Positions 17,421 to 26,129 of a stretch of DNA of 64,000 nt are shown piece by piece (within the stretch, counting starts at the first letter, position 1; each line of letters opens with the position of its first letter). Both the position numbers and the translations under genes were made by a program. This stretch comes from Heliophilum fasciatum (GTDB lineage: Bacteria > Bacillota > Desulfitobacteriia > Heliobacteriales > Heliobacteriaceae). The DNA lies in the NCBI RefSeq assembly GCF_004341395.1, contig NZ_SLXT01000004.1:62001-126000 (forward strand), given 5' to 3'. The notes under the pieces are model-generated. The model made no database searches, was not told the DNA's origin, and was given only the letters and a program-made list of their open reading frames with translations.

Positions 17421-17440
17421 CAAGAAAAGTCAATAATCGT

Positions 17441-17550
17441 TTCCTTCGGGGTTGGGTGCAATTCCCTACCGGCGGTAAAGCCCGCGAGCCCGTCAGGGCA
17501 GATCCGGTGAGAATCCGGAGCCGACAGTACAGTCTGGATGAGAGAAGGAA
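17441..17550 (+). ncRNA. FMN riboswitch (RFN element)
   Basis: The conserved RFN core is clear: TTCCTTCGGGG, GGGTG, ATTCCC-ACCGGCGGT, AAGCCCGCGAGCCC, GCAGATCCGGTGAGAATCC, GCCGACAGT and GGATGAGAGAAGGA. It binds flavin mononucleotide and shuts down the flavin operon. The following 50 bases can form alternative hairpins before the terminator at 17601. This leader occupies the 305-base gap between rpe and ribD. Confidence 0.95.
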
Positions 17551-17600
17551 AGCAATGAACAGATCGAAAAAAGCACTTCGATTTACCTTGTGTTGCTTTT

Positions 17601-25026: not shown

Positions 25027-25467
25027 ATGATTAAAAACATTTTATTGGCTACCGATGGTTCAGAACATGCGCTTAAGGCAGCGAAATATGCTTGCTCTTT
25101 CATGGAGCTCAATCCCGCTGTCGAAACGACCTTGCTGTTTGCTTATGATGTAGCCAATCAATATGTAATGGGAGCCGACGGAGCCCTCTTTGTTGAACCA
25201 GCCATCTTGGAAGGAAATATGTAAGAAATCGGCCAGCGGGTATTAGATAAGACCGAAGCCGTATTTCAAGCAGCGGGCCTAACGTGTAAGCGGGACTTGA
25301 CGATGGGTAATCCCGCTTATGCTATCTGTGAATATGCAGAAGAACATAACATGGATCTGATTATCATTGGTTCTCGCGGCATGGGTGAGATCAAAAGTTT
25401 GTTACTCGGCAGCATCAGTGATCGTGTGTTGCACCTGGCTAAATGTCCTGTTCTGATTGTTCGGTAA
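25027..25467 (+). pseudogene. Universal stress protein (UspA) gene with one in-frame stop
   Basis: From ATG 25027 the frame encodes a UspA start (I-L-L-A-T-D-G-S-E-H-A) and meets TAA at 25222-25224, codon 66. The same frame then continues without interruption for 80 codons to TAA 25465, including the complete ATP-binding motif G-S-R-G, nine residues, G-S. The total of 147 codons equals a normal UspA length. One base change (for example CAA, GAA or AAA to TAA) explains it. Either it is a fresh pseudogene, a sequencing error or a read-through gene. AGGGG precedes the start. Confidence 0.85.
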
Positions 25468-25595: not shown

Positions 25596-25625
25596 AAAAA
25601 AGGCACCGGGAAATCCCGGTACCTT
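25596..25625 (-). terminator. Terminator of the zinc-ribbon gene (minus strand)
   Basis: Read on the minus strand, AAGG-T-ACCGGG pairs with CCCGGT-G-CCTT around a four-base ATTT loop with one mismatch, then TTTTTT. Confidence 0.85.
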
Positions 25626-25642: not shown

Positions 25643-25942
25643 TTAGTAGTTGCGATGAGCTTGGAAGCAGCTGCGGCAATAAACAGGACGATCGCCGGTG
25701 GGGCGGAAGGGAACGGTGGTGGTAACACCGCACTCGGCGCACACCGTTTCAAACATCTCCCGTTGCGGGCGGCCATTGTCACCGCCGTTTTCATTCATAC
25801 GGCGTTTGCGAGCCGCACGGCAGTCAGGGCAACGTGACGGTTCGTTTTGGAAGCCTTTTTCTTCGTAAAAGGCTTGTTCGCGGGCGGAGAAAAGAAACTC
25901 AACGCCACACTCTTTGCAGGATAGGGTCTTGTCTTCAAACAC
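25643..25942 (-). CDS. Small double zinc-ribbon protein
   Basis: The 99-residue protein has an N-terminal zinc ribbon (C-K-E-C near residue 9 and C-P-D-C near 38, with the E-x-x-F-Y-x-E-K-G-F spacer of the zf-trcl family) and a second C-terminal site (C-A-E-C near 68 and C-R-S-C near 88). Between them is a basic Arg-rich stretch. Function is unknown; nucleic-acid binding is a guess from the ribbons and charge. GTG 25942 is the start; a GGAAAGGA ribosome site lies about 15 bases upstream inside a predicted hairpin. It has its own promoter and a long leader. Confidence 0.8.
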   Translation of the reverse strand: MFEDKTLSCKECGVEFLFSAREQAFYEEKGFQNEPSRCPDCRAARKRRMNENGGDNGRPQREMFETVCAECGVTTTVPFRPTGDRPVYCRSCFQAHRNY

Positions 25943-26095
25943 TTACTATTCCCGTCCTTTCCATCGGACTTGTTAGATTTACCTTGGCCGGGGTCCTATA
26001 CCCAATCCTCCAAAACTGAAACCGATAGTTCCCCAGGCATTGCCGATGGTCAAACGGACTGTTTGGGGCAGGTTGACGCACCTAGCCGACGGCTA
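25943..26095 (-). ncRNA. Structured 5' leader of the zinc-ribbon gene, candidate regulatory RNA
   Basis: Transcription from the promoter at 26101-26129 would give about 150 untranslated bases. Hairpins visible: TAGCC-GTC-GGCTA at the 5' end (26083-26095), CAAAC-AGTCC-GTTTG (26051-26065), GGGT-ATAGG-ACCC (25991-26003) and GTCC-GATGGAAA-GGAC (25954-25969), the last enclosing the likely ribosome site. I compared it by eye with FMN, TPP, SAM, c-di-GMP, c-di-AMP, M-box, ykkC and ZTP consensus cores and found no convincing match. Confidence 0.45.
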
Positions 26096-26100
26096 CTTTT

Positions 26101-26129
26101 ATTATACGAGTCAACGTAAAAAAAGGCAA
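26101..26129 (-). promoter_or_regulatory. Promoter of the zinc-ribbon gene (minus strand)
   Basis: Minus-strand TTGCCT (26129-26124) and perfect TATAAT (26106-26101) are 17 bases apart. Confidence 0.75.

Follow-up and report, generated by a model that had tools for sequence, protein, structure and literature searches.

Here we report a structured 5' leader in Heliophilum fasciatum that we read, from the sequences, as a cis-acting RNA controlling the translation of a zinc-finger gene of the zf_Tbcl family, with a probability of about 0.7. The leader lies in the window, the whole stretch of 64,000 nucleotides that was analysed, and probably decides when the zinc-finger protein gets made. A new cis-regulatory RNA had been proposed at this place in a preliminary description of the DNA, and the proposal is supported by the lack of an Rfam hit together with strong covariation in leaders of a related type. 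The RNA family appears to be new: it is absent from Rfam 15, and no earlier description of the motif was found in the literature searched (subscription papers being largely beyond reach). Structured leaders that hide a ribosome site are already known as a kind of RNA; the present case adds a covarying RNA family with a built-in expression switch before a widespread small-protein family. The locus comprises the following features, in window coordinates:

26101-26129, minus strand: promoter, with -35 element TTGCCT (26124-26129), 17-nt spacer and -10 element TATAAT (26101-26106)
25943-26094, minus strand: structured 5' leader, about 152 nt to the GTG codon, its 5' end placed from the position of the -10 element
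25643-25942, minus strand: zf_Tbcl / zf_Tbcl_2 zinc-finger gene, 99 aa, GTG start
25600-25625, minus strand: terminator-like hairpin 3' of the zf_Tbcl gene (single-gene transcript)

The minus-strand promoter TTGCCT-17-TATAAT of the preliminary description is present at 26129-26101, and the leader of about 150 bases upstream of the gene is as described there. By chance, 0.8 promoters of this kind are expected in the scanned region; we regard the present one as credible because all six heliobacterial relatives keep near-identical hexamers at equal spacing, 154-159 nt upstream of the start codon. The encoded protein, previously noted as a 99-residue zinc protein, was identified by profile search as a treble-clef tandem of zf_Tbcl and zf_Tbcl_2, with scores of 80.9 bits for PF13451 (curated cut-off 24), 70.9 bits for PF23477 (cut-off 27) and 73 bits for TIGR04272 (cut-off 36; CxxC-x17-CxxC). 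A sequence search of solved structures and a Foldseek search with an AlphaFold model (mean pLDDT 83, pTM 0.44) returned no significant relative of the protein, and no functional study of the family was found in the literature searched. The host genome contains four zf_Tbcl genes in total.

The covariance search against Rfam that the preliminary description had suggested was run with cmscan on the 4227 models of Rfam 15, taking scores at or above the gathering cut-off as matches; the window leader was run at both thresholds. Neither the window leader nor the heliobacterial and type A leaders introduced below matched any family; the preliminary description, too, had found no match to the riboswitch cores compared by eye. 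The covariance models of raiA RNA (RF03072) and of the cspA thermoregulator (RF01766) gave no match on the window leader or on type A leaders. Weak scores for SgrS and mir-208 were judged to be chance. The fold energy of the window leader is ordinary for its composition (-49.5 kcal/mol vs -47.7 +/- 4.0 in shuffles, z -0.45), and no Rfam family matches, so that everything depends on the comparison with relatives. The row of four simple hairpins described earlier is not borne out, as the pairings predicted span long distances and form alternative folds that exclude one another. The ribosome site, which had been placed inside the last of these hairpins, is indeed paired in the minimum-energy fold; its partner, however, is a distant strand.

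Side-by-side reading of leaders revealed a motif common to three paralogues of the host and to other families, (A/G)CUCG...UGUGGAU...AAACCUUCUCGAUUGCC..GGC..GGGAAG...CUUCCCAU...CGGGUAAU...GGAGGUUU-AUG, which we call type A. The covariance model R1, built from 15 type A sequences, matches 67 of the 83 genomes of the host's class and 26 of 398 genomes across the phylum. All 11 matches outside the class sit upstream of zf_Tbcl, and within the class a zf_Tbcl gene follows every match with readable sequence, one degraded copy excepted. At one locus (L149, G021:C1:2353974-2354091) a conserved type A leader precedes a zf_Tbcl gene whose reading frame ends after 9 codons.

The open fold of type A is built from the helices P1, P1b, P2 and P2a, in which 90.1% of cells are paired among 60 diverse leaders, compared with 36-57% in slid-partner controls. 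Two-sided changes occur in 14 of the 18 pairs of these helices, a level reached in none of 500 shuffles; strong covariation of the open fold was also seen on 94 leaders. Because the open fold had guided the alignments used (A2 and A5), which are biased towards it, the P1 arms were tested alignment-free as well: in 37 leaders less than 80% alike, pairing between own arms was better than between swapped ones in all but 9 of 20000 permutations. Covariation among homologous leaders, the check recommended in the preliminary description, is strong in the related type A. Covarying helices before a single gene family, as expected of a structured cis-regulatory leader, are found in full in type A and in part in the window type.

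In type A, the P2 strand CCUUC also complements the Shine-Dalgarno sequence, in a register that varies by clade (AAACCUUC:GGAGGUUU in one, CUUCUCGAU:AUCGAGGAG in another). When this anti-Shine-Dalgarno (anti-SD) strand and the Shine-Dalgarno (SD) sequence were compared, own against swapped, in the same 37 leaders and again alignment-free, the own partners paired better in all but 1 of 20000 permutations, while the control pairings of anti-SD with coding sequence and of the 5' end with the SD were not significant. Column-by-column counts at fixed register did not show the closed fold to covary significantly, since the ribosome holds the SD constant and the register of pairing varies. The closed-fold half of the type A structure is thus less secure, being suggested by the duplex permutation test and by complementarity. 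The pairings AUUGCC:GGGUAAU and GGGAAG:CUUCCC complete a long closed hairpin, which is the computed optimum; of 93 leaders, all but 6 favour the closed fold, with a mean advantage of 6.2 kcal/mol. Strands are shared among P1, P2, P3 and P4, and the open and closed folds are therefore mutually exclusive. Type A leaders combine a coevolving anti-SD strand with a second, local partner for it, the arrangement of a translational switch that sequesters the SD.

Since R1 fails to reach the window leader, even at an E-value of 10, a separate model, R2, was built for the heliobacterial leaders. R2 has a single match per genome in seven heliobacterial genomes, and in the window it matches 25940-26100; the window copy is its sole match in the host genome, and the leader is kept across four genera. 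Its predicted elements in the window are:

26082-26087, minus strand: P1 5' strand GGCUAG (open fold), pairing with 25986-25991
26061-26068, minus strand: P1c 5' strand CCCCAAAC, pairing with GUUUUGG at 26010-26016
26052-26058, minus strand: anti-SD strand UCCGUUU (CCCGUUCUU in relatives)
26043-26049, minus strand: P4b 5' strand CCAUCGG, pairing with CCGAUGG at 25961-25967 in the closed fold
26031-26038, minus strand: P3 5' strand GCCUGGGG, pairing with CCCCGGC at 25987-25993 in the closed fold
26010-26016, minus strand: P1c 3' strand GUUUUGG
25986-25991, minus strand: P1 3' strand CCGGCC, overlapping the P3 3' strand
25961-25967, minus strand: P4b 3' strand CCGAUGG
25951-25959, minus strand: SD region AAGGACGGG

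The overlap of the 3' strands of P1 and P3 makes these two helices mutually exclusive. P1 is formed in relatives by GGUUCG:CGGACC with all six pairs, and the window shows one compensatory change from U-A to C-G and one A-C mismatch; P4b, which reads UUCGG:CCGAA in relatives, carries a compensatory change from U-A to A-U in the window. The anti-SD strand pairs with AAGGACGGG in 7/7 heliobacterial sequences, and the AAAGGACGGG of the SD region is invariant in all seven leaders. In the window leader the best fold with a hidden SD beats the best SD-free fold by 7.6 kcal/mol; the anti-SD x SD duplex of this leader (L001) is unexceptional (z +0.5). The heliobacterial set consists of seven sequences, two of them nearly identical, and its covariation is thin. 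The comparison is nevertheless suggestive of the same anatomy as in type A, written in different letters; the two types are likened by architecture alone, which does not establish common descent.

The mechanism that we propose centres on the anti-SD strand, which lies halfway along the leader and would have two alternative partners. In the open fold (P1, P1b/c, P2, P2a) this strand would pair locally and leave the ribosome-binding site free, and in the closed fold (P3, P4a, P4b) it would pair with the SD and hide the site. By computed energy the closed fold would be the resting state, so that something must favour the open fold, which may be a bound factor or the folding of the 5' domain before the SD is transcribed. 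We infer that the RNA switches between these folds in the cell and thereby sets how much protein is made, and that the heliobacterial type acts in the same way as type A.

As to the trigger, our leading guess, still somewhat short of even odds and drawn by analogy, is autogenous control, in which the treble-clef protein would bind its own leader. We rank it first because the gene stays constant while the leader type changes between lineages, as in ribosomal-protein leaders, and because several of the unrelated leaders can hide the ribosome site. Ribosomal-protein leaders (e.g., S15) exert autogenous translational control, and one gene family can have unrelated leader folds across phyla. The zf_Tbcl leaders resemble them in that one gene family is served by unrelated leaders, each of which can occlude the ribosome site next to it; unlike them, they match no ribosomal-protein leader of Rfam, and RNA binding by zf_Tbcl is only putative here. 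A switch by temperature or growth state ranks next, as a rather doubtful candidate: as in cspA, a cotranscriptionally formed 5' domain would keep the site open while refolding is slow, in the cold or on a fresh message, and an old or warm message would close. The open 5' domain does come first in transcription, and zf_Tbcl genes are like csp genes in being small, multi-copy and possibly nucleic-acid-binding, with structured leaders of about 150 nt whose alternative folds hide or expose the ribosome site. At three loci (L015, L029 and L031) zf_Tbcl immediately precedes a csp gene and the gene of the ribosome-hibernation factor HPF, but such neighbours are missing at most zf_Tbcl loci. The protein family also differs from that of the cold-shock genes, and the type A and window leaders match the cspA family neither in sequence nor by covariance model. 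At equilibrium, moreover, cold strengthens the closed fold, whose advantage grows from 6.2 kcal/mol at 37 C to 7.8 kcal/mol at 10 C, and cold-opening by equilibrium energy is accordingly unsupported.

The preliminary description had suggested sensing of metal or redox state, and a riboswitch for metal, redox or a small molecule would suit a gene product that should, by its sequence, bind zinc, as well as a conserved compact domain joined to a two-state expression platform. We found no support for metal or redox sensing and consider such a riboswitch unlikely, since two pairing partners account for most of the conserved bases, no known metal-riboswitch core is matched, and the RNA goes with one gene family rather than with genes of metal transport or metabolism. 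NiCo (RF02683) and other metal riboswitches are similar as regulatory RNAs beside a metal-related function, but no metal transport gene is found here. In other lineages zf_Tbcl is served by unrelated leaders; this replacement, together with the association with one family, fits a protein or a physical state as the controlling input better than a small-ligand aptamer. Transcription attenuation, in which the closed hairpin and a U-run after GGAGG would act as an intrinsic terminator, is improbable to a similar degree: many type A leaders do have GGAGGUUUUUUU immediately 3' of the stem, but part of type A has GGAGGUCAUUUA at that position, and the U-run is absent both from the window leader and from its relatives, which read GGACGGGAUUUCUUGUG. 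Least probable of all is an ordinary leader with chance hairpins and no regulation. The folding z-score of the window leader given above would agree with it; the conservation of the heliobacterial leader in four genera speaks against it, and for type A it is contradicted by covariation and by wide conservation before one gene family.

Elsewhere in Clostridia, zf_Tbcl is preceded by raiA RNA or by leaders of unrelated type, and several of the latter likewise hide the ribosome site. Anti-SD complementarity is strong (z from -3.2 to -4.4, against -0.13 +/- 1.26 in control genes) in type B (Moorella-type; L018, L022, L037, L054), type D (L015, L029, L031, L046, L047) and a further group (L019, L021, L023), whose leaders are unrelated in sequence. 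Additional lineage-conserved zf_Tbcl leaders outside type A are seen at L064-L066 and at L057, L059, L063, L067, L068 and L072. Each conserved leader type outside type A may be a separate regulatory RNA. At L015 (2501-4285), L029 and L031, zf_Tbcl is followed on one strand first by a cold-shock protein gene and then by the gene of HPF/YfiA, the ribosome hibernation factor.

In 17 clostridial loci (L010, L013, L014, L016, L020, L024, L025, L027, L028, L032, L033, L036, L041, L042, L048, L049 and L062) raiA RNA (RF03072), also named ModT and reported as an abundant trans-acting RNA (PMC11706538), ends about 30-70 nt upstream of the zf_Tbcl start and so occupies the place of the switch leader. 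It differs from the switch leaders in its length of about 209 nt, its sequence and fold, and the lack of an anti-SD signal (z +0.5 for raiA-type leaders). A search of the host genome for raiA RNA found none, with an uninformative control. Among the raiA loci looked at, a comFC-like gene lies upstream in L014 and L024, by translated-neighbour reading. It is possible that zf_Tbcl is a protein partner of raiA RNA. More broadly, and speculatively, zf_Tbcl might be a general RNA-binding regulator, ribosome-associated or of the cold or stationary phase, that is self-controlled, in many lineages, by leader switches of independent origin; its position 3' of raiA RNA and next to csp and HPF genes would then make it a protein partner of the raiA RNA system. 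Such leaders often betray the role of their protein. Binding of the protein to its own leader, if it occurs, would make zf_Tbcl a new class of bacterial RNA-binding regulators, for which the link to raiA RNA and to HPF and csp genes offers a testable entry point.

Several other elements were recorded in passing. A NiCo riboswitch is located at L060 (5027-5107, minus strand), about 2.2 kb from another zf_Tbcl locus and on the opposite strand. In the window, a universal-stress-protein-like gene at 25027-25461 (plus strand) has one in-frame stop at codon 66 (25222-25224), its frame being open on either side, and an FMN riboswitch (RF00050, 122 bits) is present at 17438-17553 (plus strand).
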